From assembly GCF_016097555.1 (NCBI RefSeq), contig NC_054706.1:78921353-78985352 (forward strand): DNA of 64,000 bases. Direction: 5' to 3'. The position numbers and the translations under genes are program-made. The stretch is from Gigantopelta aegis (Eukaryota > Mollusca > Gastropoda > Neomphalida > Peltospiridae). Positions 1,871 to 58,100 of this stretch are shown here, one piece after another (position 1 is the first letter of the stretch; every line of letters begins with the position of its first letter). The notes beneath the pieces were generated by a model. It worked only from the letters and a program-made list of their open reading frames with translations. It was not told the DNA's origin and searched no databases.

Positions 1871-3784
1871 TCAACTTCGGGACAGGGCATCAGCGATTAC
1901 ATTAGATGTGCCCTTGATATGTTCAATGGTAATTGGGTATTCCTGCAGAAGAAGACTCCATCTCAAAACTCTCTGGTTGGTGGCTTTCATTCTGTGAACG
2001 AAGGTAAGCGGATTATGATCAGTAAAGACCACCACTTGATGCACTGCCGATTTCACGTAGATCTGAAAATGCTTCAGAGCTTGTACCATGGCCAAAGCTT
2101 CCTTCTCTATAGTGGAATAGTTCACCTGGTGTTTGTCAAACGTTTTGGAGAAGAAACTTACAGGATGGTCTAGTCCATTTTTGTCTTCCTGGAACAGCAC
2201 AGCTCCAGCTCCCACGTAACTGGCATCCACAGCTAGCTTGAACGGCATTCGGTAGGCTGGTGCTGCCATCACGGGAGACGAGTAGCGCATCTGCTTGAGA
2301 CGGTTGAATGACTTCTCGCATTCATCTGACCACTGGCACTTCGTTTCTTTCTTTTTCAGTGTCGTACGTTTTCCAGGTTTTCTCCGATAGGCATACTGTC
2401 GAATCGGTGTAGCGTTGGGTTCCAAGCGCACATCCTGGCTTAAGGTATTGGTAACCGTTGAAAGGTCCTGACAAATGGAAGCATTGTCTTGTATCAGCGT
2501 AGTCAACTTTTCTCGCTGGGGGTTCAAGTCTGCTAGAATCTGGCTGTTGGTTAATTTGATCTCTGCAGTCTTGACGTCATCACAGGAAATTGAGTGACTC
2601 TCAATTTGGAACGGTAGTACTGGAACTATCGGCAGTCTGTCAAAATAACCTTTTAGCAAATTGATGTGACAATACCTACTTTTCCTAACCCTATCAGGAG
2701 TGTTTATCACATACCCTGTCTCATTAACCCGTTTGTGCACAACATAGGGACCGAAATACCTGTTCTGTAATGAACCCCGTTTAATGGGAAGGTACAGCAG
2801 CACTTTATCCCCTGGTTTAAATTCCCGACTCTTAGCCTTCCTATCAAACACTGATTTTATTTTGCTCTGGGCATGGCTCGGTTGCTTCCTATCTAGGTCG
2901 GTCGCCTGCCATCTCCTATCTCTAACTCTCTTATTCATCAATACTCCCTTGTCCATACAATAACCTGACTTCTGATCCTCCATCTCACCCTCAGTTAACA
3001 ACGTAGTGCGAGCTGCCAACAATTTTGGATCAGCCCCCTGCTCTAGAATTAACTCTTGTCTATTACAAGGTAAGTCCCCTCTATCAAACACAACTGGTTC
3101 ATTTACCCTTTGCGGGAGATCAACAGGTTCCACCACATTTAATTCCTCAGTTGACTTATCTACCATTTTACTGATAACCTCTTCCACTCCAATTTCATGG
3201 CTCACACACGTATCAGACAAATCACAAATATCCTCTGGGTATCGTGTTACCCTACTGGCCATAGCCCTAGTCTTTACACACGCAGGATATCTAATCTCAT
3301 CAACCTCACTCTCTTGTATTGGTAAAGGGCTGTCTTTAATTAACAACTGGTCGCATTTCGGCTGACAACACTGACTAGTCAAATCATTACCCAACAAAAC
3401 TCCTATGTTTTCAACAGGCAAGTCCTTTACAACACCCATAATGACTGGTCCCATCACAAACTTCGAACACAAGAAAACGTTATGTAACCGGACAACCATT
3501 TTTTCTCCAGTAACCGAGGTTAAGGCCAAACTACGTCCTGTATCTGAATTTTCAATACCAGCTAAACACTCCGACGTGATCAGCGACTGACTACACCCGG
3601 TATCTCGATAGATTGATATTGCCTTCGGACTCAATTCTTGTTTCACATCACAAACCATACCAGTGGACACATACGGGTTTACTTTCTCTGCCATGGGACT
3701 AACCATTAACTCTCTCGCTAACCGAGCTGACCTCACTAAACCGACCACTTGCGCATTATCGCGTTTCCTTTTAAAACAGTCCAC
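1871..3784 (-). pseudogene. pol-region fossil: protease, integrase C-terminus, RNase H
   Basis: This is a long open stretch of the LTR element. In order it shows an aspartic protease with the DTG triad (IYRDTGCSQSLITSE), then a GPY/F integrase C-terminal module (FKPGDKVLLYLP, then RYFGPYVV). An RT-leader-like segment ending PIRQYAYRR comes next. The end is a clear RNase H of the Ty3/gypsy kind (LAVDASYVGAGAVLFQ, FTDHNPL, NVIADALSRS). Having integrase material ahead of the RT/RNase H part differs from the standard gypsy order. It recalls the Gmr1 group of Ty3/gypsy elements. The pol set is incomplete and is not presumed functional. Confidence 0.8.
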
Positions 3785-5029
3785 GACAAGATGGTTATCC
3801 TTTTTACAGTAACTGCAATGTGGACGAAAAGTTCTTGCATTGGCTGATAATGCAGGCTTATCCTTACTTTGCCCACCAGGTGCATTCCTTGCCTGACTAG
3901 CTGACCAACTGATGACTCTCCCCGATAGTTACTTTCCCGGGAAAAACCTGGCTCAAATTTCTTCTTATCACCCTGTTGTATAGAGCTACCCTGTACTGCC
4001 TGAGCCTTGTGTATTAACACGTAGTCATCTGCCACTATGCCTGCCTCCTCTATCTTTTTGACATCACGATCCTCTAAATGAATACGTAAGCTAACTGGTA
4101 ATCCATTTTTAATGTCCTGTAAGATCAACAACTCCCGTAACTCGGTATATGACTCTACCTGATGAGACACCACCCATTTATCAAACATCCCTGCCTTCTT
4201 AGCCACAAACTCACTATAAGACTGACCCTGCGTTTTTCTCAACTCGCTATACCGTAAACGATAATCCTCAGGTCGTAATTCATAAGCCCTCAACACTGCA
4301 GCCTTCACTAGGTCGTACTGACTTGCTCGCTCATCACTCATTGAATTATAAGCTACACTAGCCTTCCCCTTAAACTTAGACACGGCTAACAATGTCCACT
4401 TAGACTGCGGCCAATTTAGCTGCTTAGCGGCCCGTTCAAATAGTTGGAAGAACATATCTACCTCCTGGTCATCAAATACAGGCACTGATCTATAAGCCTC
4501 CGACATGTTAAAACCATTTCTGGCTTCCCGTCTAACTTCTTCAGTATTCAACTTTAACTCATGTTCCACTTTTAATTTTGCTAACTGGAATTCTCTATCC
4601 CTCTCTTCTTTCTCTCTATCCCTATCTTCTCTTTCTCTCTCTCTATCCCTCTCTTCTCTCTCTCTCTCTCTTCCCTATCTCTATTTTCTCTATCTCTAGC
4701 TCTATCTTCTCTATCCCTTTCTTCTTCTTTTTTTTCTCTCTCTCTCTATCTAATGCACGTTCTTCTCTTTCGTACTCAAGCTTTTTAAAAGCTAATTGTT
4801 GTTCCACACTTAACTCATTTATCTCTATCTCTGGAACAATCTCACTGTCTTCCACAACAGGACTATCACCAAAAACTTCCTGGATAATAATTGTCCTTAT
4901 ATCACCTAAGGTTTTAGCTGATGTTAAATCAATTTCTCGCTCACCCGCGATTTCAACTAACTCGGCCTTACGCGCTCGCTTAATCTCCACTACACTGAGC
5001 GTAGGCCTATCCAGCAAATTCTTATCCAT
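3736..5029 (-). pseudogene. gag-region fossil of the LTR element
   Basis: Two neighbouring open stretches (4643-5029 and 3736-4569, minus strand) hold gag-type sequence. The first has an acidic N-terminal part that runs into a charged Arg/Glu/Lys tract encoded by CT-rich simple sequence (about 4580-4760). The second has a retroelement capsid-like helical region (FFQLFERAAKQLNWP, LLILQDIKNGLP). A CCHC zinc-knuckle-like piece lies near 3790-3840. The region belongs to the element at 567-6267 and is described only as a fossil. Confidence 0.72.
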
Positions 5030-7312: not shown

Positions 7313-8075
7313 ACTGACAGGTCTACTGTAGACCAAGTCACGCTCTGCTGTCAGTCTTTCTGTGATCAGGAGAACACCTGACAGTCTTTCTGTGATCAGG
7401 AGAACACCTGGCAGGCCTACTGTAGACCAAGTCACGCTCTGCTGTCAGTCTTTCTGTGATCAGGGGAACACCTGACAGGTCTACTGTAGACCAAGTTACG
7501 CTTTGCTGTCAAGTCTTTCTGTGATCAGGGGAACACCTGGCAGGCCTACTGTAGACCAAGTCACGCTCTGCTGTCAGTCTTTCTGTGATCAGGGGAACAC
7601 CTGACAGGTCTACTGTAGACCAAGTTACGCTTTGCTGTCAAGTCTTTCTGTGATCAGGGGAACACCTGGCAGGCCTACTGTAGACCAAGTCACGCTCTGC
7701 TGTCAGTCTTTCTGTGATCAGAACACCTGATAGGCCTACTGTAGACCAAGTCACGCTCTGCTGTCAGTCTTTCTGTGATCAGAACACCTGATAGGCCTAC
7801 TGTAGACCAAGTCACGCTCTGCTGTCAGTCTTTCTGTGATCAGGGGAACACCTGACAGGTCTACTGTAGACCAAGTTACGCTTTGCTGTCAAGTCTTTCT
7901 GTGATCAGGGGAACACCTGGCAGGCCTACTGTAGACCAAGTCACGCTCTGCTGTCAGTCTTTCTGTGATCAGAACACCTGATAGGCCTACTGTAGACCAA
8001 GTCACGCTCTGCTGTCAGTCTTTCTGTGATCAGGGGAACACATGGCAGGTCACACTCTGCTGTCAGTCTTTCTGT
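7313..8075. repeat. 64-bp tandem repeat, about 12 copies
   Basis: The units contain CTACTGTAGACCAAGTCACG and TTTCTGTGATCAGGGG. Two variants tend to alternate: one with CAGGCCTACTG and GTCACGCTCTG, the other with CAGGTCTACTG and GTTACGCTTTG. This gives a dimer of about 129 bp as a higher-order period. Some units lack the GGGGA segment. No coding potential is evident. Confidence 0.9.
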
Positions 8076-12321: not shown

Positions 12322-15300
12322 GATTGGTCTGACGTTACCACATGTCTAATAAGCCTCTGAATATTTTATAGTTATATTTTGTTGTCTAGAGCTCTCATCA
12401 ATGTAGCCACTTTTTGGCTACATTTGGCCCATGCATGGCCCAAAATGGTTATTTGCCTTCAGGGCTCACGTGAGGTCAAAATCATAGATCGAAGTCACTT
12501 CTCTTTGAAGCTTTAGAGAGGGTGAAGTTTTTAACAGCAGGGAGACTTGAATTTTTAATCCAAAAAATAAAATAGGCAAAAATAAGTTATCTTAATACAG
12601 GTGCAACTTTTACAATCTGTATTTTATTTTATTTTATTTTAATTTTTATTTATTTATTATTATTTTTTTATATTTTTTTTTACCATCTGTACTGCTAATT
12701 GATGGATATGTGCTCTATAGTTGTTGTTTTTTAAAAATTAAATCACCGTTCCACATGTCACCTTCTTTAGAAATAATTAAATGTAACTGAATAGCACTAA
12801 TTTAACCATTTAGAATTCATTCTCTCACAAGTTTGTCTTCTCATTTCATTTAATAACTATTCCATGCAGAGTATTAATCTATTAAGAGTATTAATCAGTA
12901 GATTAATCTACGGCAGTTAAGCTTAGATTATCCAGAGGCAATCAAATGCGTTCCAGAGTCAGTTTCTTAATTGATATACTGTGGAGTTGTCAGACTGAAT
13001 GGGTACTAGCATCCGTGAAGGTCTGAAAATTGCTTATTTGCTGCTGCACCTTGTCACTGTTGTTTAATATAAAAAAAAATGTTTTAGAATTTATGGTGGT
13101 CGCTTAACACAGGCACTTTAGTGACTTGGAGATCCAGTTTAGGTGGCCACTGGGTGTGTAGGACAGGTTACAGACTTGGACATCCAGTTTAGGTGGCCAC
13201 TGGGTGTGTAGGACAGGTTACCGTTTATTATGAGTGCATATACATTAAAACTCCACTAGGACAGGTTTGCTTGTATTATTTTATAATTTCAACATCTGTT
13301 TTGTATGTTGAATTTATTCATTATGACAAAGGGTACGTAAAACTAGTTAATTACACCCCGCTTTTTTTTTCAAGTTGAGGTCTGCTGCTACAAATGAATT
13401 TTTTTTTCCAATGTATTTTCCAGTGGAGCATGACCCAAACTCCCTAAAAAAATCATTCGCCATGGTCTAGATCCCCACCCATGTACAATTTTCAACACAT
13501 TCGCCTGACAATATACTTCAACAGTCAGAGTGCCAGACACGGGTGTTGTCTGAGCTAGACAGTTTACCGGTATCTTTAAGCCTGTTGCATGATTTTGTGG
13601 TGCCAGTCTCTCTTCAAACGCTCAGACACTTCACACTTAATTATTATCTATGAATAGGTGTTCCTCAAGTTTGTCACCATTCATCCGTGATGTGTACATT
13701 GCAAGTGATGGCTATTTTTAAAAAGGCGACACAGATTTCGCCTTACGGTGACTGGCACAGTGAAGTCAGGCTGGTCAGAGCAAAGTTTGGCTCACTTTGC
13801 CCCGGTCGCGTGACCCCTGGCCATAGAGATATTAATTATATTGTACTAGATATGAATAGTATGTAAAAAATCATTCTAAAAATCTCATTTATAAAGCCAA
13901 ATGCCAATGAAAATTACAATCTGACATTTTATGACTATCAGTGTTAAATCAGTCTTAAGTAGGGTCAATAAGACTGCTATTTTTGGAATCCGCACCACTT
14001 TTTACAATAAAGTGAAACCTTCCTTACCTAAAATTCTGATTAAAGCCATTTACCTCTTAGATTAATTATTGTGCTACATGCTGCATTATTGGGATTTCAC
14101 ACAAACAAAGTGTTCACGTTTGTGAAAATCTCCATTAGAAAAATCATTCTACCGCTTTCTGTACTGGTGGATTAATAGGTTACAATGAGCATTTATCATT
14201 ATGTCACAACAAACTGTTTTACCACTTATACAACATTTAAAAGACATTACACTATATATATAAATAAACAGATACAAATACATACATACACACACACATG
14301 CACACAGGTCTACACAGACACACACAGGTCTACACACACACACACACACACTCTACACAGGTCTACAGAAACAAAGAAATGTTTTATTTAACGACGCACT
14401 CAACACATTTTATTTACGGTTATATGGCGTCAGACATATGGTTAAGGACCACACAGATTTTGAGAGGAAACCCGCTGTCACCACATAGGCTACTCTTTTA
14501 CGACAGGCAGCAAGGGATCTTTTATTTGCGCTTCCCACAGGCAGGATTGCATAAACCATGGCCTTTGTTGAACCAGTTATGGATCACTGGTCGGTGCAAG
14601 TGGTTTACACCTACCCATTGAGCCTTGCGGAGCACTCACTCAGGGTTTGGAGTCGGTATCTAGATTAAAAACCCCATGCCTCGACTAGGATCCGAACCCA
14701 GTACCTACCGGCCTGTAGACCGATGGCCTGCCACGACGCCACCGAGGCCGGTACACAGGTCTACAGAGACACACACAGGTCTATACACACACACATACAC
14801 ACACACAGGTCTACAGAGACATCCATACAGACACACAGGTCTACAGAGACACCCATACTGACACACACTCACACACACACAGGTCTACAGACACCCATAC
14901 AGACACCCATACAGACACCCACACATACACACACACATCAGCAATAGTTAATAAGACAAGTGTAGCTCAGTCAAACATAATTATTATAAACACAGTGAAT
15001 GATAGGTGTTTAATATATCAGCTTAGTTAAGAAAACTTACTCGATGGATACCCGCCTTGTGGGGGTGGATACCCCCCTTGTGGTGGTGGATAGCCTCCTT
15101 GCTGTGGTGGGTATCCACCCTGTGGTGGTGGATAGGAACCAGGGGGTGGTGCTAAAAAACACATAATCAAGTTTGTGTATTATCAAAATCAAGATTAATA
15201 ACATTTAGCAATGGAATTTATTTTCATCTTTCCAAAATTAATTTTCATCTTTCCACTGCCAAACTCCAAACTTGAAAAGAATTTGTATTATGACAAACAA

Positions 15301-21490: not shown

Positions 21491-32428
<10,938 letters not shown>

Positions 32429-39702: not shown

Positions 39703-40915
39703 CATGATTAAGTGATCACCCTCCACCAATATGTGATCACCCTCTACCAATACGTGATCACCCTCCATCATTAAGTGATCACCTTCCAGCAATATGTGAT
39801 CACCCTCCAGCAATACGTGATCACCCTCTACCAATACGTGATCACCCTCCCTCATTAAGTGATCACCTTCCACCATTAAGTGATCACCCTCCACCAATAT
39901 GTGATCACCCTCTACCAATAAGTGATCACCCTTCACCATTAAATGACACCCTCCACCTATACGTGATCACCCTCCACCAATACGTGATCACCCTCCACCA
40001 ATACGTGATCACCCTCCACCCATACGTGATCACCCTCCACCAATATGTGATCACCCTCCATCATTAATTGATCACCTTCCACCATTACGTGATCACCCTC
40101 CACCAATATGTGATCACCCTCTACCAATACTTGATCACCCTCCATCATTAAGTGATCACCTTCCACCAATACGTGATCACCTTCCACCAATATGTGATCA
40201 CCCTCCACTAATACATGATCACCCTCTACCAATACGTGATCACCCTCCATCATTAAGTGAACACCTTCCACCATTAAGTAGTCACCCTCCACCAATACGT
40301 GATCACCCTCTACCAATGTGATCACCCTCCATCATTAAGTGATCACCTTTCACCAATACGTGATCACTCTACCAATACGTGATCACCCTCCACACCCTCC
40401 ATCATTAAGTGATCACCTTCCACCATTAAGTGATCACCCCCCACCAATACGTGATCACCCTCTACCATTAAGTGATCACCTTCCATCATTATGTGATCAC
40501 CCTCCACCAATACGTGATCACCCTCCATCATTAAGTGACCACCTTCCACCATAAACTGATCACCTTCCACCGTTAAGTGATCACCCTCCACCATTACGTG
40601 ATCACCCTCCACCAATACATGATCACCCTCCATCATTAAGTTATCACCCACCAGCGTTAAGTAATCACCCTCCACCATTAAGTAATCACCCTCCACCATT
40701 TAGTGAACACCCTCCACCATTTAGTGATCACCCTCCACAATTAAGTGATCACCCACCACCATTAAGTGATCACCCTTCACCATTTAGTGATCACCCTCCA
40801 CCATTAAGTGATCACCCTCCACCATTAAGTGATCACCCTCCACCATTAAGTAAACACCCTCCACCATTAAGTGATCACCCTCCACCATTAAGTAATCACC
40901 AATGACCACCAAGTG
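39703..40915. repeat. 21-bp minisatellite, about 55 units
   Basis: Units read GTGATCACCCTCCACCAATAC with variation at the last six bases (CATTAA, AATACG, AATATG). The 21-bp length preserves frame, so the minus strand shows long Val-Glu-Gly-Asp-His repeats. I treat these as non-coding. A degenerate continuation with CACCATTAAGTGATCA units runs to about 41230, broken by an (AT)n run at 41081-41135. Confidence 0.93.
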
Positions 40916-41108
40916 ATTGCCATACATCATGTTATCACCATACACCATCAAGTGGTTTGTCAACACCATTAAGTGGCTATTATACACCATTAAGTGATCA
41001 TCATACACCATTATTGATCACCATACACCATTAAATGATCATTGCACCATTAAGTGATTACTATACATTAAAAAGTGATACTATATATATATATATATAT
41101 ATATAGAT

Positions 41109-41612: not shown

Positions 41613-41706
41613 TAGCCGGAGTACTCAGACTGTAAGAGAGCTAGAAACATTTGGATGGCTACGACGCTCTCCATCTAGCTCTCTTACAGTCAGAGTACTC
41701 GGGCTA
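41613..41706. mobile_element. 94-bp solo foldback, same ends as 49308-50254
   Basis: The ends TAGCCGGAGTACTCAGACTG and CAGTCAGAGTACTCGGGCTA are inverted and match the termini of the larger foldback. The flanks GAATACGAT (41604-41612) and GAATATGAT (41707-41715) agree at eight of nine positions, a 9-bp target duplication. Only about 30 bp separate the arms. Confidence 0.8.
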
Positions 41707-42289: not shown

Positions 42290-43800
42290 ATGCACCATGC
42301 AAAATGGTTACTCAAATGCACAGATAGCAGTACCTATACATGGTCCCCCTGTTTATAACAAAACCTGCTGTCTGTACGACTGAGTCCATGGCGGTATATC
42401 TGGGATGAGGGCAGACCGGGCTCTTAGCTTTGGATAGCAGCCAGTCTAGGAGAAGGAAATCACTGACTCAAAAACCATTACTGCCTTGTGGTTAGTTCCC
42501 GCAAGAACAAAGGCTAAGAGAAGGACAACTCTGAATACAAAACTAGAAGGCTGAAGATGGAAGTACAGAGCCATGGGCGCCCTCTAGCAAATCACTGTAC
42601 TACGCACCTCAACGCATATGACTACACAAAATGATCTACACCAATATGGCATTCAGTCTCCGAGGTCCCTCCAGAGAGATACAGTGCCGGACTCCAGGCC
42701 TCGAAGGAGCCCACACTCTACTACTGGAGGTCCATGTAAACCAAAACCATTGTATCGCAAAAGACGAAGCAGCAAAGCTACTGCTAGTACTGAAGATGCC
42801 AAAAGCCTACAACCATTAATTCTCATGCACTGGAATGCTGAAGGAATTGGAAACAAGAAAACAGAACTCGAACACATACTGCAAGACCAAAACATAAACG
42901 TCTGCTGCATCCAGGAGACACACTTACAACAAAATAAGATCTTTAAAGTAAGAGGCTACCAGTGTTTCAGGTCTGACAGAACTGGCAGAACGAAAGGTGG
43001 GATCTTGACTCTAGTAAGGAACATCCACGCCGTCCAGACTAGTGTTCACATGGATGACTCTGAATACCAACTAATAAAAATAAAAACACCCAGATCAGAA
43101 TTACACATGGTAAACTTCTACTGTCCAAATTACAGACCACTTTCCTTGGACACTATAGATATGCAGAGTAAAAATCTACTCATAATTGGTGACTTCAACA
43201 GCCATTCAAAGCTGGGGCTATAGTGAAATGGACAACTGCAAAGAAGAAGTGGAAAACTGGAAGGATAATTATGGTCTGATCAACACACCTTCTGATACCC
43301 CAACCTTCTACTCCAGAAGGTGGCACACAACATCAACCCCTGATCTTGCATTTTGTACTGAAGACCTCCATGGCAGAATAACCAGAGAAGAAGGAGATCA
43401 ACTAGGTGGAAGTGACCATCGTCCCATATACCTACTACTGGAAGGAACAATTCGTGGTGAACAAACCACCCCAAGATGGAATTACAAAAAGGCCAACTGG
43501 GCTCTATACAGACATGTACCAGCATTCTTACCAAAGACATGAACGTACAGGACAGAGATATCAATCTGGTGGTAAAGGACTTCAATGACCGTATAATCAT
43601 GGCAGTCCATGAGACAATCCCGAGAAGTGCCCGCAAACACTACAAGCCATACTGGAGTAAAGAATTAGAACAACTGCATAACATTCTAACACAAGCCAGG
43701 GTGAAAGCAGAAGCTGAGCCATCACAAGAGAACAACATCAAACTGCAAAACGCAAAGGCCAAATTTACCCAACACAAAATACTAGCAAGAGCAATAAGGA
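42290..43800 (+). mobile_element. non-LTR retrotransposon (LINE), 5' part, broken
   Basis: A possible 5' region (about 42290-42617) leads into an endonuclease-coding frame. The coding part then runs directly into the 81-bp array, and the rest of RT and the 3' end are missing. The RT motif kept in the array (KSPGPDGISNEML) and the APE-type endonuclease place it among Jockey/CR1-like LINEs. I cannot settle the clade without a search. Confidence 0.78.
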
Positions 43801-43850
43801 AATTAAAACAACTAGAAAGTCGCCAAACAGGCACAAGCAGCATGCAGTAT
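42618..43850 (+). pseudogene. LINE endonuclease and pre-RT region, two frame changes
   Basis: The frame from 42618 starts MTTQNDLHQYGIQSPR and carries the APE endonuclease motifs: HWNAEGI, CCIQETHL, GGILTLVRN, then IIGDFNSHSK near residue 195. A frame change near 43200 moves coding to the frame with TPDLAFC and the closing GGSDHRPIYLLLE. A second near 43530 moves it to the frame with PYWSKELEQLHNIL and ARAIRKLKQLESR. The EN catalytic residues (N, E, D-N, D, H) are all recognisable, so the copy decayed late. The reverse transcriptase that should follow is replaced by the tandem array. Confidence 0.8.
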
Positions 43851-46800
43851 TTCCAACGAGATGCTCACCCACCTTGGAACTGCTGCAATAAGGAAATTAA
43901 AACCTAGAAAGTCGCCAGGACCAGATGGTATTTCCAACGAGATGCTCACCCACCTTGGAACTGCTGCAATAAGGAAATTAAAACCTAGAAAGTCGCCAGG
44001 ACCAGATGGTATTTCCAACGAGATGCTCACCCACCTTGGAACTGCTGCAATAAGGAAATTAAAACCTAGAAAGTCGCCAGGACCAGATGGTATTTCCAAC
44101 GAGATGCTCACCCACCTTGGAACTGCTGCAATAAGGAAATTAAAACCTAGAAAGTCGCCAGGACCAGATGGTATTTCCAACGAGATGCTCACCCACCTTG
44201 GAACTGCTGCAATAAGGAAATTAAAACCTAGAAAGTCGCCAGGACCAGATGGTATTTCCAACGAGATGCTCACCCACCTTGGAACTGCTGCAATAAGGAA
44301 ATTAAAACCTAGAAAGTCGCCAGGACCAGATGGTATTTCCAACGAGATGCTCACCCACCTTGGAACTGCTGCAATAAGGAAATTAAAACCTAGAAAGTCG
44401 CCAGGACCAGATGGTATTTCCAACGAGATGCTCACCCACCTTGGAACTGCTGCAATAAGGAAATTAAAACCTAGAAAGTCGCCAGGACCAGATGGTATTT
44501 CCAACGAGATGCTCACCCACCTTGGAACTGCTGCAATAAGGAAATTAAAACCTAGAAAGTCGCCAGGACCAGATGGTATTTCCAACGAGATGCTCACCCA
44601 CCTTGGAACTGCTGCAATAAGGAAATTAAAACCTAGAAAGTCGCCAGGACCAGATGGTATTTCCAACGAGATGCTCACCCACCTTGGAACTGCTGCAATA
44701 AGGAAATTAAAACCTAGAAAGTCGCCAGGACCAGATGGTATTTCCAACGAGATGCTCACCCACCTTGGAACTGCTGCAATAAGGAAATTAAAACCTAGAA
44801 AGTCGCCAGGACCAGATGGTATTTCCAACGAGATGCTCACCCACCTTGGAACTGCTGCAATAAGGAAATTAAAACCTAGAAAGTCGCCAGGACCAGATGG
44901 TATTTCCAACGAGATGCTCACCCACCTTGGAACTGCTGCAATAAGGAAATTAAAACCTAGAAAGTCGCCAGGACCAGATGGTATTTCCAACGAGATGCTC
45001 ACCCACCTTGGAACTGCTGCAATAAGGAAATTAAAACCTAGAAAGTCGCCAGGACCAGATGGTATTTCCAACGAGATGCTCACCCACCTTGGAACTGCTG
45101 CAATAAGGAAATTAAAACCTAGAAAGTCGCCAGGACCAGATGGTATTTCCAACGAGATGCTCACCCACCTTGGAACTGCTGCAATAAGGAAATTAAAACC
45201 TAGAAAGTCGCCAGGACCAGATGGTATTTCCAACGAGATGCTCACCCACCTTGGAACTGCTGCAATAAGGAAATTAAAACCTAGAAAGTCGCCAGGACCA
45301 GATGGTATTTCCAACGAGATGCTCACCCACCTTGGAACTGCTGCAATAAGGAAATTAAAACCTAGAAAGTCGCCAGGACCAGATGGTATTTCCAACGAGA
45401 TGCTCACCCACCTTGGAACTGCTGCAATAAGGAAATTAAAACCTAGAAAGTCGCCAGGACCAGATGGTATTTCCAACGAGATGCTCACCCACCTTGGAAC
45501 TGCTGCAATAAGGAAATTAAAACCTAGAAAGTCGCCAGGACCAGATGGTATTTCCAACGAGATGCTCACCCACCTTGGAACTGCTGCAATAAGGAAATTA
45601 AAACCTAGAAAGTCGCCAGGACCAGATGGTATTTCCAACGAGATGCTCACCCACCTTGGAACTGCTGCAATAAGGAAATTAAAACCTAGAAAGTCGCCAG
45701 GACCAGATGGTATTTCCAACGAGATGCTCACCCACCTTGGAACTGCTGCAATAAGGAAATTAAAACCTAGAAAGTCGCCAGGACCAGATGGTATTTCCAA
45801 CGAGATGCTCACCCACCTTGGAACTGCTGCAATAAGGAAATTAAAACCTAGAAAGTCGCCAGGACCAGATGGTATTTCCAACGAGATGCTCACCCACCTT
45901 GGAACTGCTGCAATAAGGAAATTAAAACCTAGAAAGTCGCCAGGACCAGATGGTATTTCCAACGAGATGCTCACCCACCTTGGAACTGCTGCAATAAGGA
46001 AATTAAAACCTAGAAAGTCGCCAGGACCAGATGGTATTTCCAACGAGATGCTCACCCACCTTGGAACTGCTGCAATAAGGAAATTAAAACCTAGAAAGTC
46101 GCCAGGACCAGATGGTATTTCCAACGAGATGCTCACCCACCTTGGAACTGCTGCAATAAGGAAATTAAAACCTAGAAAGTCGCCAGGACCAGATGGTATT
46201 TCCAACGAGATGCTCACCCACCTTGGAACTGCTGCAATAAGGAAATTAAAACCTAGAAAGTCGCCAGGACCAGATGGTATTTCCAACGAGATGCTCACCC
46301 ACCTTGGAACTGCTGCAATAAGGAAATTAAAACCTAGAAAGTCGCCAGGACCAGATGGTATTTCCAACGAGATGCTCACCCACCTTGGAACTGCTGCAAT
46401 AAGGAAATTAAAACCTAGAAAGTCGCCAGGACCAGATGGTATTTCCAACGAGATGCTCACCCACCTTGGAACTGCTGCAATAAGGAAATTAAAACCTAGA
46501 AAGTCGCCAGGACCAGATGGTATTTCCAACGAGATGCTCACCCACCTTGGAACTGCTGCAATAAGGAAATTAAAACCTAGAAAGTCGCCAGGACCAGATG
46601 GTATTTCCAACGAGATGCTCACCCACCTTGGAACTGCTGCAATAAGGAAATTAAAACCTAGAAAGTCGCCAGGACCAGATGGTATTTCCAACGAGATGCT
46701 CACCCACCTTGGAACTGCTGCAATAAGGAAATTAAAACCTAGAAAGTCGCCAGGACCAGATGGTATTTCCAACGAGATGCTCACCCACCTTGGAACTGCT

Positions 46801-49140
46801 GCAATAAGGAAATTAAAACCTAGAAAGTCGCCAGGACCAGATGGTATTTCCAACGAGATGCTCACCCACCTTGGAACTGCTGCAATAAGGAAATTAAAAC
46901 CTAGAAAGTCGCCAGGACCAGATGGTATTTCCAACGAGATGCTCACCCACCTTGGAACTGCTGCAATAAGGAAATTAAAACCTAGAAAGTCGCCAGGACC
47001 AGATGGTATTTCCAACGAGATGCTCACCCACCTTGGAACTGCTGCAATAAGGAAATTAAAACCTAGAAAGTCGCCAGGACCAGATGGTATTTCCAACGAG
47101 ATGCTCACCCACCTTGGAACTGCTGCAATAAGGAAATTAAAACCTAGAAAGTCGCCAGGACCAGATGGTATTTCCAACGAGATGCTCACCCACCTTGGAA
47201 CTGCTGCAATAAGGAAATTAAAACCTAGAAAGTCGCCAGGACCAGATGGTATTTCCAACGAGATGCTCACCCACCTTGGAACTGCTGCAATAAGGAAATT
47301 AAAACCTAGAAAGTCGCCAGGACCAGATGGTATTTCCAACGAGATGCTCACCCACCTTGGAACTGCTGCAATAAGGAAATTAAAACCTAGAAAGTCGCCA
47401 GGACCAGATGGTATTTCCAACGAGATGCTCACCCACCTTGGAACTGCTGCAATAAGGAAATTAAAACCTAGAAAGTCGCCAGGACCAGATGGTATTTCCA
47501 ACGAGATGCTCACCCACCTTGGAACTGCTGCAATAAGGAAATTAAAACCTAGAAAGTCGCCAGGACCAGATGGTATTTCCAACGAGATGCCCACCCACCT
47601 TGGAACTGCTGCAATAAGGAAATTAAAACCTAGAAAGTCGCCAGGACCAGATGGTATTTCCAACGAGATGCTCACCCACCTTGGAACTGCTGCAATAAGG
47701 AAATTAAAACCTAGAAAGTCGCCAGGACCAGATGGTATTTCCAACGAGATGCTCACCCACCTTGGAACTGCTGCAATAAGGAAATTAAAACCTAGAAAGT
47801 CGCCAGGACCAGATGGTATTTCCAACGAGATGCTCACCCACCTTGGAACTGCTGCAATAAGGAAATTAAAACCTAGAAAGTCGCCAGGACCAGATGGTAT
47901 TTCCAACGAGATGCTCACCCACCTTGGAACTGCTGCAATAAGGAAATTAAAACCTAGAAAGTCGCCAGGACCAGATGGTATTTCCAACGAGATGCTCACC
48001 CACCTTGGAACTGCTGCAATAAGGAAATTAAAACCTAGAAAGTCGCCAGGACCAGATGGTATTTCCAACGAGATGCTCACCCACCTTGGAACTGCTGCAA
48101 TAAGGAAATTAAAACCTAGAAAGTCGCCAGGACCAGATGGTATTTCCAACGAGATGCCGCACCCACCTTGGAACTGCTGCAATAAGGAAATTAAAACCTA
48201 GAAAGTCGCCAGGACCAAGATGGTATTTCCAACGAGATGCTCACCCACCTTGGAACTGCTGCAATAAGGAAATTAAAACCTAGAAAGTCGCGATGCTCTT
48301 CATCGTACGATCCAACGAGATGCTCACCCACCTTGGAACTGCTGCAATAAGGAAATTAAAACCTAGAAAGTCGCCAGACCAGATGGTATTTCCAACGAGA
48401 TGCTCACCCACCTTGGAACTGCTGCAATAAGGAAATTAAAACCTAGAAAGTCGCCAGGACCAGATGGTATTTCCAACGAGATGCTCACCCAGCCGTGGAA
48501 CTGCTGGAATAAGGAAATTAAAACCTAGAAAGTCGCCAGGACCAGATGGTATTTCCAACGAGATGCTCACCCACCTTGGAACTGCTGCAATAAGGAAATT
48601 AAAACCTAGAAAGTCGCCAGGACCAGATGGTATTTCCAACGAGATGCTCACCCACCTTGGAACTGCTGCAATAAGGAAATTAAAACCTAGAAAGTCGCCA
48701 GGACCAGATGGTATTTCCAACGAGATGCTCACCCACCTTGGAACTGCTGCAATAAGGATAAATTAGAGGCCAGACTGAACTTCCTTAACTTTATAAAATT
48801 AAAACCTAAATTACAAACCTAGGAAGTTTTAACGACTCATGGTATTTCCAACGAGATGCTTTATGTTTTGGAACTGCTGCAATAAGGAAATTAAAACCTA
48901 GAAAGTCGCCAGGACCAGATGGTATTTCCAACGAGATGCTCACCCACCTTGGAACTGCTGCAATAAGGAAATTAAAACCTAGAAAGTCGCCAGGACCAGA
49001 TGGTATTTCCAACGAGATGCTCACCCACCTTGGAACTGCTGCAATAAGGAAATTAAAACCTAGAAAGTCGCCAGGACCAGATGGTATTTCCAACGAGATG
49101 CTCACCCACCTTGGAACTGCTGCAATAAGGAAATTAAAAC
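43797..49140. repeat. 81-bp satellite built from a LINE RT motif, about 66 units
   Basis: The unit is 81 bp (27 codons). It includes GAGATGCTCACCCACCTTGG, AACTGCTGCAATAAGGAAAT and AGTCGCCAGGACCAGATGG. In the plus frame it codes for AAIRKLKPRKSPGPDGISNE followed by MLTHLGT, part of the LINE reverse transcriptase. From 43861 to about 48200 some 53 units are virtually identical; the visible exception is one T-to-C change near 47590. From 48200 to 49140 units are irregular, with indels and one AT-rich insertion at 48760-48870. Since 81 is divisible by three, the plus strand is open for 1,446 codons and the minus strand for 1,456 codons. I regard neither as a gene. Confidence 0.95.
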
Positions 49141-49142
49141 AG

Positions 49143-52100
49143 TTCCTTTTTACGATAAATATGACGGCTTAGACAGAAAAGCCAAAAGTCGAAATAGGTA
49201 TATATCACATGATCGAGTAAAACAAGAACAAAAAGTACGCTGTAAGAAGGTAATGTATATTATTTATCAATTTTATGTAGACAAAAAATCCACAAATCAT
49301 TACAACCTAGCCCGAGTACTCTGACTGTAAGAGAGCTAGACGGACATTTGGACATAAACACGCTCTCATTACAGTCGGAGACCAACCTATGTCTTTTTAT
49401 GGCAATTCCTGACTACCAAACGGTAGGGAACGAGTCCCGCTCTAATACCACAACAATCCTATGTTTGACGTCAAATACCTTTACATCAATCATTTTCGAG
49501 TTAAGTGATACCAAAAAATACACATATTAATCACTAATACACATACTACAGAAAGAAACCCGACAGCACCCACATTCAGCTACGCTTCGTGACACTCCGT
49601 CGCAACAATTACAAAGCTCGGCGATCTATTTCGAGACTGGGCGATTCCGCCTTGTGCAGCAGTTACAGGGGTCATCTCATAAGAGGTGGCAGTACGTAGC
49701 ACATACTTTTGCCGTATCCTGTCGATAACACCCCAAATGTATCCTTCAAATTTAAAATGGAATCAATAATGTGTAATTGTTTTGGTTTAATGACGTAATG
49801 AAATCCAAATTCATCCAAAACGGCATTAGCCAACTCTTCCATGTTGTAACTTCGCTTGATATGAGACGGCCCCTGTAACTGCTGCACAAGGCGGAATCGC
49901 CCAGTGCGCGATCACGTGGTCTACGTCTCGAAATAGATCGCCGAGCTTTGCAATTGTTGCGACGGAGTGTCACGAAGCGTACCTGAATGTGGGTGCTGTC
50001 GGGTTTCTTTCTGTAGTAAGTGTATTAGTGATTAATATGTGGATTTTTTTGTATCACTTAACTCGAAAATGATTGATGTAAAGGTATTTGACGTCAAACA
50101 TAGGATTGTTGTGGTATTAGAGCGGGACTCGTTGCCTACCGTTTGGTAGTCAGGAATTGCCAAAAAAAGACATAGGTTGGTCTCTGACTGTAATGAGAGC
50201 GTGTTTATGTCCAAATGTCCGTCTAGCTCTCTTACAGTCAGAGTACTCGGGCTAATTACAACCATGTCCGGTGTATAGGCGCGTCCGGTGATTCGGCGCA
50301 CTTGATATTTTGCTGAAGTATGCTTAGGAAGTTGTCATGTTGTTGGTGTTTTTAACAAATTAAAGTTCAATTTCTTTTTTATGGTTAATCAAGGATCAAC
50401 ATATTTATTGTTAAGGGTGTAATTAAATTTGTTTTAGAATTATCAATAATTATATCATAATTTCAAAATAAATAATTCACCTGTTTTCGTGTATATAAAC
50501 GCGAAGTAGGTCAGCCTTATTGATATTAAGAATGTTAAAACCAGTCTAAAAACACCTTTCCCGCATTTTAAAAATTATAGCAAACAGTATAAATGTAATT
50601 ATTTTTGTTCAGTTATTTTTATTTAAACTGAAAAGGAAAACACAGACAAATGCAAACAAAACGAAAATTTTACACCTTAATTGACAGTCATTCCAGTTCA
50701 CAATTATCACATTGTTGTAAAAAAATAAAAGCGAAATAAGATCCATGTGTGTGCACAATCTACCCGAGAAAAATAAAATCCATGTAGGCATCTTAGCCAT
50801 GCATGACAATGAACATGTATGCATCTGCAGTACTGTGCCACTCAAGAAAACATTTCCGAAACTGATCATGAGATGGGTCATGTGTGATCGTTAATTTTCA
50901 TAGTAATATAAAAAGAAGACAAAATAAAAAAGTACTAAAATAATTTTGGAATAATAGTGTAGCGTTTATGGGCTAAAACTGAGGTCATAGGCAGTCTGTA
51001 AATAGCGGGTCAACGATCCACATCTACTGCGCCGAATCACCAGACATGCAAATCGTTTTGGATACAAGGGGGTGCCTCTATTTATGCACCATTTTAAAAT
51101 GTTTATTTACTACAGACATAAAACAATTTGTGGTGTATTTTAGATTATGCACTGCTTCATTGGTGAAAGGCACATTTTATTAAGTATTTCACAGTGTTCA
51201 CATAGAAAATGGTCCTTGAATTCTTAGGTGCGCCGATACACCGGACAGCACTGTACATTACCAATACCAGCCTTTATAAAATACAAAAACCCTGTTATCC
51301 TGTAACTCAAACAACCATTTTAATCAAATTCTTTGCATTATTGTTTTGCACGGTAATGTATCTAATGTATTTTGTAAAAATATATCCACATGATCCCAAT
51401 AATAAGATATTTATGAAAGTAAGATTAATTAGCCTTTTTTCTTACATTCATCGCAGATCTGTTACTCATTTACTGAGATATTTTTTTTTAAATGCGATTT
51501 CACATGACAAAATTTCTCAATCCCATCATATTTACTGAAATTTCTCATTAATCCCATCATATTTACCAGAATTTCTCATTCCCATCATATTTACCGACAC
51601 TATATAACCATAAATAAAATGTGTTGAGTGCATCGTTAAATAAAACATTTCCTTCCTTCCATTTCCCATCATATAGACACTCAGTCTGTATATAGATTTT
51701 TCACCTTGTCATAAGAGCTCTCAATTAAACATCTGTTTCATCAGTAGACATTTTACTTATTATTATTATTGCTTTCTATTAATTAATACAGAGGTCATGA
51801 AAATGCTTAGTAAATAAGTGTGTGAATCCTGTTTTAGTTTTTAAATTAAAGTCAGAAACAATTGTTGCCATGTCAGGAATTTTATACCAACTTTATTCCT
51901 AGAATTCTATGTACAGTGTAATTTCACTTTATTGTGCATTGCCATAATTGAACAATACTAAACATTTCAGATAACAAAAGGAGATTCTTTGGAAATTAGG
52001 AAAAACATGGGAAATTTGTATTCAGTACAAAAATAGAGAATTGAGATAATTAAAAGACATGTTTCAGCTTGAATTTTTGGATTATAAAATTAGTCTAACC

Positions 52101-55100
52101 TTAATATATGTTCAGAAACTTTATAATGTGGTTTGCCATATAGGTGCAGTACTAACGAGGTAAGAGTAAGATCATTTTGTGTTGTTATTTGATTTATAGA
52201 TATCTAACATCTTGAAAAAGAATGAATGTCAGCGATCAACAGAAGAAGTATTGATGCTGGAATCATCACCAGAAATTGTTCAACTAGTACAGAAGAGAGC
52301 ACAGGTGCTTGTTAAAAAGAAACAACGGATTTTAGAGGTAAACAATGAAGCACTATTTTGAGAATAACTTTGTGCTATCTTATTATAAACATGTGTATGT
52401 ACATGTGTACAACAAAATGTAAGTTAAGGGTGTGTAGAACATGGCATTGTAAGACACTTGGTGCTTTATTAATTACATGATTTTGGATAATATTACTTGG
52501 CCTTTTCAAATATAGGCATATGTTTTTTGTGAAATTGCAAAATTCTGTAACAAGCAAAAATCAAAGGGCTTGTTTTCCCCCTCTATTCATGTACATGAGT
52601 ATGGTGTAAGTGCATCAGTGTAAGTGAGAGGAAGTGGAATTGTGTGTGATAAGTTCCATGCATGTGCAGTGATCATTGTCTTTGCCTGGTATTTACACTT
52701 TGACTGGTACCTAAGGGCTATATTCCTTTAAAAACATTTCTTCTGCATAACATATCCAAGTCGTGGGACATAGCCCCATGGTTTGGGATCGATCCCCGTT
52801 ATTGGACTATTTCTCATTCCAGCCAATGCACCATGACTAGTATATCAAAGACTGTGATATGTGCTATCCTGTCTGTGGGATGGTGCATATATAAAAGATC
52901 CCTTGTTAATAATGGAAAAATGTAGCAGATTTCCTCTCTGAGACATCCAATAGTCAGTGATTAATAATAAATATGCTCTAGTGATATCATTAAACAAAAC
53001 ATACCCAAGGATAGGTGACTGTTAACTAGAGATGTCTTCCTGAGAAGGGTTGACTGTATCATGTATGTTATAATATTATAAATACAGACTTGTGTTTAAA
53101 AGCCCAGTCAATAAGAAAGTAATTTAAACTATTTCACAAGTTAATTTAATATTTCTCTTTGGTATTTAAGGTTGAAGATGATGTTGATACCTTGTCTGCT
53201 AAATGTCAGCAGTTAGCAAATGCTATCAAATCATCCAAGAAAGTTGTTGTGTATACAGGTGCTGGAATTAGTACAGTAAGTTTTAACTAATTCATTTTAA
53301 GCATAACAAATACAGACATGTGTAGAGTGTATGCTGTCATTTGTTCATTTCATTCATCCATTTCAACTTATATTTTCATTCAAGTACAATATTTGTTATT
53401 GATAATTAATATTAAAGCTATTTTTGAAATATATTTTATAATATAGTTAATTGTTTTATTTCTTTGTTACTTTATCTAGTACTTGTTTTGATTTATGTCT
53501 CACTACTTTAATCCAGTTAACTTTGTGATGATTTATTTCTGTATGGTTATAAACACTTTTGATGCTATTTTAACTTCGAGATATTTATCTGGCAGGGGAA
53601 TTTCGTTTCAGTATCACATTGTGATTCACTGAACAAGTTTCATGGACCTCTATCCAATTTTAAATAAAAAAAGCAGTAGTTGCTAATCAATTTTGAATTG
53701 ATTAGAAATGTCACTAATCAATATTTTGAAATAAAATATTTCATGTCTGGTACTTGTTTTGTTTCATATTTCACTACTTTTAATTGAGTTAACTTTGTGG
53801 TTATATTTATACAGGCTGCTTCAATACCTGACTATCGCGGACCAAATGGGGTATGGACAATGTTGAAACAAGGAAGGGAGCTTGAGTATGTATTTTTATT
53901 GTCAGTTTATTGAAAAAGATTAATGTTTTCTTTAAAAAAGAGCATATATGATTAATGTTATTGTTAATTAAGTATCAAACTTTTTTAGTGTAATTTTATA
54001 TTTTTGTTGCAGTCTTTACCTGTATAGTGTCTTTTCAAACTGTTTTTAGGTTACAATACTTAATAAAACATGTAAAATATTTATCCCAACATTTTTTATT
54101 TAGCTGCAGTATTTAAATTGGCTGTTATTATAGTGGTTAATTTATTACATAAATATGATTACCATTAGTCGATAAATATGTGTATAAAAGAGCTTGAATT
54201 ATGGGATGAATGCTATGGTTCTTAGGCAGTTTGCCATTTTCAGCTAATTAATTATTTATTGCTTATAGAGATCAAGACCTTAGTGACGCAGAACCGACCT
54301 TCACCCACATGAGTATCACGAAGCTGTACACAGAAGGATACGTAAGTGTTTATGAGTGTTACAAAACTGTACACAGAAGGATATGTAAGTGTTTATGAGT
54401 ATTACAAAGCTGTGCACAGAAGTATATGTAAGTGTTTATGAGTATTACAAAGCTGTACACAGAAGGATACGTAAGTGTTTATGAGTATTACAAAGCTGTA
54501 CACAGAAGGATACGTGAGTGTTTATGAGTATTATGAAGCTGTACACAGAAAGATACATGAGTGTTTATGAATGTTACAAAGCTGTACACAGGATACTTAA
54601 GTGTTTATGAGTATTACAAAGCTGTGCACAGAAGGATACGTAAGTGTTTATGAGTATTACAAAGCTGTACACAGAAGGATACGTAAGTGTTTATGAGTAT
54701 TACAAAGCTGTACACAGAAGGATACGTAAGTGTTTATGAGTATTATGAAGCTGTACACAGAAAGATACATGAGTGTTTATGAATGTTACAAAGCTGTACA
54801 CAGGATACTTAAGTGTTTATGAGTATTACAAAGCTGTGCACAGAAGTATACGTAAGTGTTTATGAGTATTACAAAGCTGTACACAGAAGGATACATGAGT
54901 GTTTATGAGTGTTACGAAGCTGTACACAGAAGGATACGTAAGTGTTTATGAGTATTACAAAGCTGTGCACAGAAGTATACCTAAGAGTTTATGAGTGTTA
55001 CGAAGCTGTACACAGAAGGATACATGAGTGTTTATGAGTGTTACAAAGCTGTACACAGAAGGATACTTAAGTGTTTATGAGTATTACAAAGCTGTGCACA

Positions 55101-58100
55101 GAAGTATACGTAAGTGTTTATGAGTGTTACGAAGCTGTGCACAGAAAGATATGTAAGTGTTTATGAGTATTACAAAGCTGTACACAGAAGTGTATGTAAG
55201 TGTTTATGAGTATTACAAAGCTGTGCACAGAAGTATACGTAAGTGTTTATGAGTGTTACGAAGCTGTGCACAGAAAGATATGTAAGTGTTTATGAGTATT
55301 ACAAAGCTGTACACAGAAGTGTACGTAAGTGTTTATGAGTATTATAAAGTTGTACACAAAAGGATACATAAGTGTTTATGAGTGTTACAAATCTGTTTCT
55401 AATGTAATTTGTGATGAATCAAATTTTAAACCAATTAAATATTCCATTCCAGATAAAAATTCTTCAGACAGTTATGATTTCTTACTGGATAATGGCCCCT
55501 ACATGAACACTACACCATTGAACATTGACATTGGCCCTTTGTCAGTGATATTTAATTTTTAAAATCATTATTTTACTTTTATGTATGTACTTTTATATAT
55601 CAGTTGAGTTTGTTTCAGTTTCCGGTGTCAGTTTTGCTGTATCAGCTGTTGTGTTTAACATGTTTTTGTTTGTTGCAGGTCAACTATGTGGTATCTCAGA
55701 ACTGTGACGGTTTGCATGTACGGAGCAGTCTACCGAGGAATGTCATATCTGAGGTTCATGGCAACATGTATCTTGAGGTTTGTTTGTTGGGCTTTTCAGA
55801 ACTGTTAGATGTCTGAATATTGCAAGAACAGTCGTTTTGTTTGTATGTTGATCGTACAAGTCTGGTTTTGTGAACCCATTTTGTATTTACACATGATATG
55901 TAGGACATCCTTCACAGGGCTACGTAAAAGTGAAATGGGTTACTTGAATTTATCTTGACATAAGCCATAAATGGGTTGCGTAGTATGTCAGTGACTCAAA
56001 AGTTTATCTTGATTTTAAGTCAATGCTACACATGCTTTGTGATTTATCGAACACCCCAGTATGAAAAAGTAGATTGATTGTCAAGTGTCAAACAAAGGTA
56101 AGTATATGAATGAATGTTTTCATAACCCATGATATATTTGATTTATTAACTGTTAAATATTTTCATAACTCATTTGATTTATTAATTGTTAGATATTTAT
56201 GAATAACAATTGTTGCTTGGTGGTTCATACTGACTTTTGTTAAATTAAAATCTAATGTAATATAATAACTTAATTTAACAGAAGTGCATAGGAATCACCA
56301 AGCAAAAGTTACAAAAATGTTACACTTTGTTTTGTCAATTATGTAAAATAACGTTTGAAGGTTTGTCCAAACTGCAAGCCCCAGCAGGAGCTCTTCCGTC
56401 TGTTTGACGTGACGGAGAAGACAGGCGTGCGTCGCCACGTCACGGGCAGGAAGTGTCACCGCTGTAGCTCCGCGCTGAAGGACACCGTCGTGCACTTCGG
56501 CGAGAAGGGCGGGCTGCGATCTCCGTACTGGTGGAAGCGCGCCGTGAAGGCTGCCAACAACGCAGACCTCATTCTGTGTCTCGGATCCAGTCTCAAGGTA
56601 TCACAAAGTTGTTTACACTTCTGATTTTTTTATATATATATATAAATATAATCCATGTACTGTTGTGGTCCATGAGTGAACATTTGTTGTCCCATGAGTG
56701 AACATTTGTTGTTCGACATCAGTCCTTTATATCTGGGGTGTGACCACTTTTGCGCCCCCAAGCACACATTAATTGTGTATTGTTCACCTACAAAAATAAA
56801 TGGTACCAGCCTGCCTCTCGCTAGTTGTTGAATACAGGGTGTGTTATGCCCAGCTGGCTCTAGTATTTGACTATCATTATACTGATTCAGTGATTGCTCA
56901 GTTTGCGCCATTCAAAACTTCTTTGTGTCAATACTATGTGCAAGCTGTACTGAAGATTTTTCTTATGGAATGCAAATTCTGTAGCTTGTCAGGAAAGTGT
57001 TTTATAAGTTGCCTCAAATTTTCAAACATGAAGGACCGTGACACGTATCTTCCATACGGTGTGACATGGCACATGATCATGAAGGACCGTGACAGTTATC
57101 TTCCATACTGTGTGACATGGCACAGGATCATGAAGGACTGTGATGCATATCTTCCATACTGTGTGACATGGCACAGGATCATTGAGGACCGTGACACGTA
57201 TCTTCCATACTGTGTGACATGGCACAGGATCATGAAGGACCGTGACACGTATCTTCCATACTGTGTGACATGGCACAGGATCATGAAGGACCGTGACAGG
57301 TATCTTCCATACTGTGTGACATGGCACAGGATCATTGAGGATTGTGACACGTATCTTCCATACTTGTGACATGGCACAGGATCATGAAGGACTGTGACAC
57401 GTATCTTCCATACGGTGTGACATGGCACAGGATCATGAAGGACCGTGACACGTATCTTCCATACTGTGTAACATGGCACAGGATCATGAAGGACCGTGAC
57501 ACGTATCTTCCATACCGTGTGACATGGCACAGGATCATGAAGGACCGTGACACGTATCTTTCATACGGTGTGACATGGCACAGGATCATGAAGGACCGTG
57601 ACACGTATCTTCCATACGGTGTGACATGGCACAGGATCATGAAGGACCGTGACACGTATCTTCCATACTGTGTAACATGGCACAGGATCATGAAGGACCG
57701 TGACACGTATCTTCCATACTGTGTGACATGGCACAGGATCATGAAGGACCGTGACACGTATCTTCCATACTGTGTAACATGGCACAGGATCATGAAGGAC
57801 CGTGACACGTATCTTCCATACTGTGTGACATGGCACAGGATCATGAAGGACCGTGACACGTATCTTCCATACTGTGTGACATGGCACTGGATCATTAAGG
57901 ATTGTGACACGTATCTTCCATACTGTGTGACATGGCACAGGATCATTAAGAACTGTGAAACGTATCATCCATAATGTGTGACATGGCATCACACAGTTTG
58001 CGGATGATTTTTTGGGGGTTCATACCCCAATAAACGTAAAAGAAATCTGTCATCCCTACACCTTGATTTGTGAATCAGTGTAAAATGTCCCCATTGACTG

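Follow-up and report, generated by a model that had tools for sequence, protein, structure and literature searches.

A tandem array of an 81-bp unit, probably derived from LINE reverse-transcriptase coding sequence, beside a broken LINE fragment

Introduction

Parts of retrotransposons that have been described as sources of satellite DNA include the untranslated regions of LINEs as well as gag and pol domains from LTR elements (PMC12628747). ORF2 of LINE-1 is listed as the source of the satellites PROsat of Phodopus roborovskii and Pvc 20 of Phoca vitulina (PMC9659126). For oyster satellitomes, six rows give 0 to 6 retrotransposon-related satellites per species (PMC11136912). Among the human minisatellites and satellites with units longer than 20 bp, 7,276 of 31,472 were derived from transposable elements (TEs). 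Of these, 601 stemmed from L1 other than the L1PA subfamilies, which were treated separately, and the two established initiation models fitted only 6% of the TE-derived ones (PMC3389668). The model of Haber and Louis, which is also described in PMC3389668, places the birth of minisatellites between short direct repeats of 5–10 bp (PMC6947457).

Here we describe a tandem array of an 81-bp unit in a window of 64 kb, i.e. the whole stretch of DNA that was analysed. Like PROsat and Pvc 20, the array consists of tandem repeats, which are probably tied to the coding ORF2 of a LINE. In PROsat, 88% similarity concerns a small region of the repeat (PMC9659126), whereas here the whole unit of 27 codons reads as coding sequence; unlike PROsat and Pvc 20, the present array is known from one locus only. 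With the HinfI satellite of chicken it shares coding LINE sequence inside a tandem repeat, but the CR1 part of HinfI comprises the 3′ UTR and partial ORF2 (PMC9659126), while the present unit looks wholly coding-internal. The human TE-derived minisatellites were born inside TEs and expanded locally, as the present array probably was; they belong to another host and were collected from two units and 95% identity upwards (PMC3389668), in contrast to 65 units with a near-perfect core in our case. As in the model of Haber and Louis, the array starts and stops in one 19-bp word, as any array ending at that phase does; the parental word pair of the model would lie in an intact parent LINE. Satellites derived from coding LINE sequence and TE-derived minisatellites are already known, and the array fits that kind. 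It provides a readable, probable example of coding TE sequence becoming tandemly repeated; its left border, at the LINE fragment, is sharp and its core near-perfect.

Results

Extent and composition of the array

Unit borders were set by cutting the array at the fixed word AATAAGG, which gave 66 starts from 43791 to 49122, i.e. 65 complete units and a stub of 19 bp (43791–49140). This agrees with the approximately 66 copies given in a preliminary description of the locus, although the start had been placed at 43797. At period 81, TRF reported 60.6 copies with 99% matches at 43847–48758 and 3.7 copies with 96% matches at 48839–49140. The 65 complete units of 81 bp, arranged head to tail, lie within the unit length of 10–100 bp that characterises TE-derived minisatellites. 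No exact 13-bp match to the unit was found outside the array on either strand of the window. The array, the open frames within it and its two flanks are composed as follows.

42588–43790, plus strand: fragment of a broken LINE, comprising the APE-type endonuclease and some of the linker, from Pfam, solved structures and open frames
43791–43884, plus strand: 94 bp, most likely unit 1; 13 bases inserted at six places of the 81-bp unit, no substitution
43816–48201, plus strand: open frame of 1,461 codons from stop to stop, LINE sense, (AIRKLKPRKSPGPDGISNEMLTHLGTA)n; passive by-product
43812–48197, minus strand: open frame of 1,461 codons from stop to stop; passive by-product
43885–48096, plus strand: block of 52 successive 81-bp units; a single substitution in 4,212 bp
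48097–48878, plus strand: ragged part with six irregular units, two exact units and one disordered unit
48097–48586, plus strand: the six units of the ragged part with small indels, substitutions or a replaced stretch
48587–48748, plus strand: the two exact units inside the ragged part
48749–48878, plus strand: the disordered unit of the ragged part, 130 bp
48879–49140, plus strand: three exact units and the terminal 19-bp stub GCAATAAGGAAATTAAAAC
49141–49307, no strand assigned: right flank up to an inverted-repeat element, with no LINE reverse-transcriptase motif seen in the motif scan

The 81-bp consensus was matched exactly by 56 of the 65 units, which form runs of 45, 6, 2 and 3. The near-identity described earlier is borne out by this sequence, and the number of about 53 essentially identical units was slightly low. 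The sole substitution of the 52-unit block falls into the unit at 47530–47610, and 45 successive units are free of any variant. Besides this unit, eight units are irregular, namely unit 1, six in 48097–48586 and the one at 48749–48878. All variants are private to one unit, and all but one base are located close to the ends of the array. Two stretches, at about 48292–48310 and at 48759–48838, are partly unlike the unit. The filler at about 48759–48838 includes the unit pieces AAATTAAAACCTA and AAACCTAG; templated end joining or long-read sequencing error could each give them.

Identity of the unit

In one frame the unit reads AIRKLKPRKSPGPDGISNEMLTHLGTA, i.e. 27 codons, and carries ...KSPGPDGISNEML..., a motif of the KSPGPDGI type. 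LINE reverse transcriptases have a conserved N-terminal segment, KSPGPDGI, and in Jockey-type elements RKLK- and RKLL-like words stand approximately 27 codons apart in this part of the enzyme. A Pfam search with three units gave no reverse-transcriptase match (best E = 0.065, below the cut-off), and two units had no match among the solved structures of the PDB. Rfam gave no match at gathering scores. Reverse-transcriptase motif patterns were found at five loci of viral contigs (L001–L005). Four of these (L001, L002, L004 and L005) were discarded, as their motif letters sit in frames broken by stops. In the fifth contig, L003, the encoded reverse transcriptase is akin to enzymes of the group II intron and retron types; SKTPGPDGIN occupies its residues 32–41, and the RVT_1 match begins at residue 70 of the same protein. 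Judged from the motif, the adjoining LINE endonuclease and the placement in L003, the unit is probably the N-terminal segment of a LINE reverse transcriptase. The earlier assignment of the unit to LINE reverse-transcriptase coding sequence thus appears likely from motif and neighbourhood, while the negative Pfam and PDB searches and the negative search for a parent LINE count against it.

This latter search was performed with several parts of the locus. The unit protein fitted 11 stretches of viral contigs, none of them a relative, and no relative was found among phages. Endonuclease pieces fitted 2 and 3 stretches of viral contigs, again without a relative, and had no relative among plasmids; 27 stretches of genome contigs fitted the linker piece and none was a relative. 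The reverse-transcriptase motif patterns occurred 0 times in genome contigs, as did a further pattern in viral contigs. Because the parent LINE was not found in the viral, phage, plasmid and genome contig collections searched, we infer both the parental segment and the seeding homology. A literature search with three motif words, rather than with the full letters of the unit, returned nothing relevant by title or abstract.

The LINE fragment and the flanks

The LINE endonuclease lies directly upstream of the array on the same strand, in a fragment which is open in three different frames (42588–43220, 43186–43539 and from 43461 onward). Pfam identified Exo_endo_phos in the first of these (E = 1.2e-6) and Exo_endo_phos_2 in the second (E = 3.7e-9). 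Among solved structures, a chain named LTX ranked first (2v0r; E = 2.2e-8); LINE-1 endonucleases and ORF2p came next, starting at E = 2.6e-8. By these similarities the LINE endonuclease noted previously is real, with matches far beyond chance.

Neither KAFD nor QGGxxSP reverse-transcriptase motifs were found in the six frames of the window outside the array, and none of the six [FY]xDD words of this six-frame scan stands beside one of them; as the Pfam scan covered selected frames only, a very decayed reverse-transcriptase remnant could have escaped. The first 40 bases past the array (49141–49180) are random-like when compared with the unit, since 1,954 of 2,000 shuffles equalled their score. 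The search for a target-site duplication gave as the longest word common to the left of the LINE and the right of the array one of 10 bp.

The left border

The stretch which starts at 43791 (GCAATAAGGAAATTAAAA) consists of a 19-bp word common with the unit, a 2-bp insertion and then 14 bp identical to the unit (CTAGAAAGTCGCCA). An alignment of 43791–43884 recovered all 81 bases of the unit in order, with zero substitutions and with insertions only, and from 43847 onward agreement with the unit is complete. Compared with the unit, the 37 bases that follow the 19-bp word had a local score of 14, which 1 of 5,000 shuffles also reached. The LINE sequence in front of this word, likewise 37 bases, appeared random-like (923 of 2,000 shuffles reached its score). 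By themselves, the 21 bases from the end of the 14-bp match to 43847 carry little weight. Beyond the 2-bp insertion the LINE frame reads QLESRQ and the unit frame PRKSPG, and this difference of frame suggests an edge copy of the unit rather than a separate coding word. On this alignment, the array most likely starts at 43791, with 43791–43884 as its first, damaged unit.

In the preliminary description, the AIRKLK word upstream was regarded as a second LINE site which had seeded the duplication. This word belongs most likely to unit 1, and such a second site is therefore not supported. The unit does begin and end in the same words, as had been pointed out, but this holds for any tandem array.

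Open frames on both strands

The two frames of 1,461 codons agree with the more than 1,400 codons per strand reported before. Their openness follows from a unit length divisible by three (81 bp) and from the lack of stops in one frame of the unit per strand. When the codon order of the unit was shuffled, which keeps the plus frame open, the minus frame was left open in 14,829 of 20,000 cases, and among 20,000 base shuffles of the unit 35.5% were open on both strands. Sliding windows of 27 codons along the LINE's own frames would be minus-open in 265 of 360 cases if repeated. Among the other tandem arrays of the window, the open stretches of the 51-bp array cover 208 and 210 of 320 codons on the two strands, those of the 21-bp array 124 and 124 of 227, and in a 12-bp array all 24 codons are open on each strand. 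None of the 43-, 71- and 76-bp arrays is open beyond 68 codons, and the 129-bp and 333-bp repeats, although multiples of three, have only 42/45 and 73/46 open codons. These counts indicate that a period divisible by three is needed and that for short units it is often enough.

Openness on both strands, which had been called unusual, is ordinary and needs no special cause. It represents a pitfall in annotation, as short units with a length divisible by three are often open on both strands and long frames of an array are no sign of coding. The array probably codes for nothing. That it encodes a selected repeat protein is hardly credible: the 1,461 open codons per strand and a methionine codon in every unit of the plus frame would suit such a protein, but the codon-order shuffles and LINE windows lead one to expect this openness, the 51-bp and 21-bp arrays are likewise open over long stretches, and no relative of the repeated protein was found in the PDB, in viral contigs or in phages.

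Variant patterns

When the entire array was force-aligned to its repeated unit, this revealed 28 substitutions, all distinct and none common to two units, and 26 indel events (14 insertions and 12 deletions); both counts are inflated by the disordered units 48261–48343 and 48749–48878. Without these, 4 substitutions and 10 indels were counted in the printed alignments. The comparison took in the 51-, 43-, 76- and 71-bp arrays of the window. Variants occurring in more than one unit account for 22 of 34 substitutions in the 51-bp array (1 indel), for 60 of 67 in the 43-bp array (2 indels) and for 4 of 6 in the 76-bp array (0 indels), whereas none of the 4 substitutions of the 71-bp array is shared and 4 indels accompany them. 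Private, indel-rich variation sets the 81-bp array apart from three of the four arrays compared, but is not unique, as the 71-bp array demonstrates.

Discussion

We consider the array to be a minisatellite derived from a transposable element, a dead LINE, and amplified in a recent burst, with a probability of roughly 0.7. Slow unequal exchange should spread variants among neighbouring units, and none is shared; this favours a burst from one unit, with ends which are either repair scars or errors of assembly or consensus. The earlier view of a recently amplified or homogenised tandem array adjoining a LINE endonuclease region is upheld. Of the two routes of homogenisation named there, unequal exchange and rolling-circle amplification, the former is disfavoured in its slow form by the private nature of all variants. 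In the proposed course of events, a 27-codon piece from the N-terminal part of the LINE reverse transcriptase would first have undergone duplication through slippage or through end joining between short homologies, the simplest site being within the reverse-transcriptase segment. A single unit could then have been multiplied in a recent burst by rolling-circle or break-induced copying or by repeated slippage, and the ends of the array would carry break-repair scars or local sequencing error.

Part of this picture may be a product of the assembly, in which a shorter true array had its units multiplied or the edges consist of poorly corrected long-read sequence. Such an origin is possible, if rather unlikely. 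The variation at the ends is private and indel-heavy, unit 1 departs from the unit through insertions only, the stretches at about 48292–48310 and 48759–48838 are partly unlike the unit, and the exact 333-bp tandem duplication found at another place of the window might also be false. On the other hand, the 52-unit block bears a private substitution, shared substitutions with few indels are seen in three of the four arrays used for comparison, and break-repair scars would yield ends of the same kind. Growth and homogenisation by slow unequal exchange between sister chromatids, as in classical satellite evolution, we regard as unlikely. Unequal-exchange models predict divergence at array edges, which is where the divergent units are found, and three of the four other arrays do show shared variants; yet no substitution of the 81-bp array is common to two units, and its longest run of 45 units is free of variants.

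The start of the array might alternatively go back to recombination between a LINE site in the linker (AIRKLK before QLESR) and another in the reverse transcriptase. The 19-bp word common to the stretch at 43791 and the unit would be in line with this, as would the fact that the frame of the LINE fragment (43461–43907) stays open through this stretch. We find recombination of this kind improbable, as the identity continues for 14 bp past the 2-bp insertion in the other frame and nothing but insertions sets the stretch apart from the unit, as would hold for an edge copy. The recent burst may, in its strictest form, have been a single event which multiplied one reverse-transcriptase segment approximately 65-fold and left end scars with locally templated filler. 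This version is quite doubtful. If true, the locus would show a satellite just after its birth, with variants not yet spread and decay not yet begun, and it might point to a LINE lineage bearing a variable minisatellite within its coding region.

Other features of the window

The region of 64 kb looks eukaryotic and is rich in tandem growth. Further tandem arrays are located at 39707–41058 (21 bp), 54309–55396 (43 bp), 57027–57988 (51 bp), 27416–27935 (71 bp) and 7383–8049 (approximately 129 bp), and a 333-bp segment at 29261–29927 is present twice in tandem with 100% identity, which is either a very recent or a false assembly duplication. An open frame of 617 codons (24680–26530) contains three successive copies of a DNA-binding module of the Psq / Tc5 type, of transposase origin; the module copies measure 300 nt, and the second and third are 83% and 90% identical to the first.

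To the right of the array, an element of 947 bp (49308–50254) has inverted arms of 330 nt, which are 98% complementary, and a 9-bp direct repeat, ATTACAACC, on both flanks. It holds a minus-strand fragment similar to DEAD/DEAH-box helicases (Pfam E = 2e-5; 24.8 bits at a cut-off of 26). Elements with 9-bp flanking repeats are often Mutator-like, and this one may belong to that type and have captured a piece of a gene. An inverted-repeat element of 94 bp (41613–41706), flanked by GAATACGAT and GAATATGAT, has ends resembling those of the larger element and is a short relative of it. These neighbouring elements were considered as carriers of the array and rejected, since by eye each seems to own its 9-bp flanking repeat.

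On the minus strand, open frames at 1874–4674 include a retroelement-type RNase H domain (1874–3925) and a SCAN-like domain (3739–4671); they perhaps represent a second retroelement of the LTR type, separate from the LINE. ARAGORN predicted one tRNA-like gene without a clear anticodon (tRNA-???; 14677–14748, minus strand), which is possibly part of a short interspersed element. Among the selected frames searched with Pfam, the window also holds fragments matching the Sir2 and lysine-methyltransferase families.
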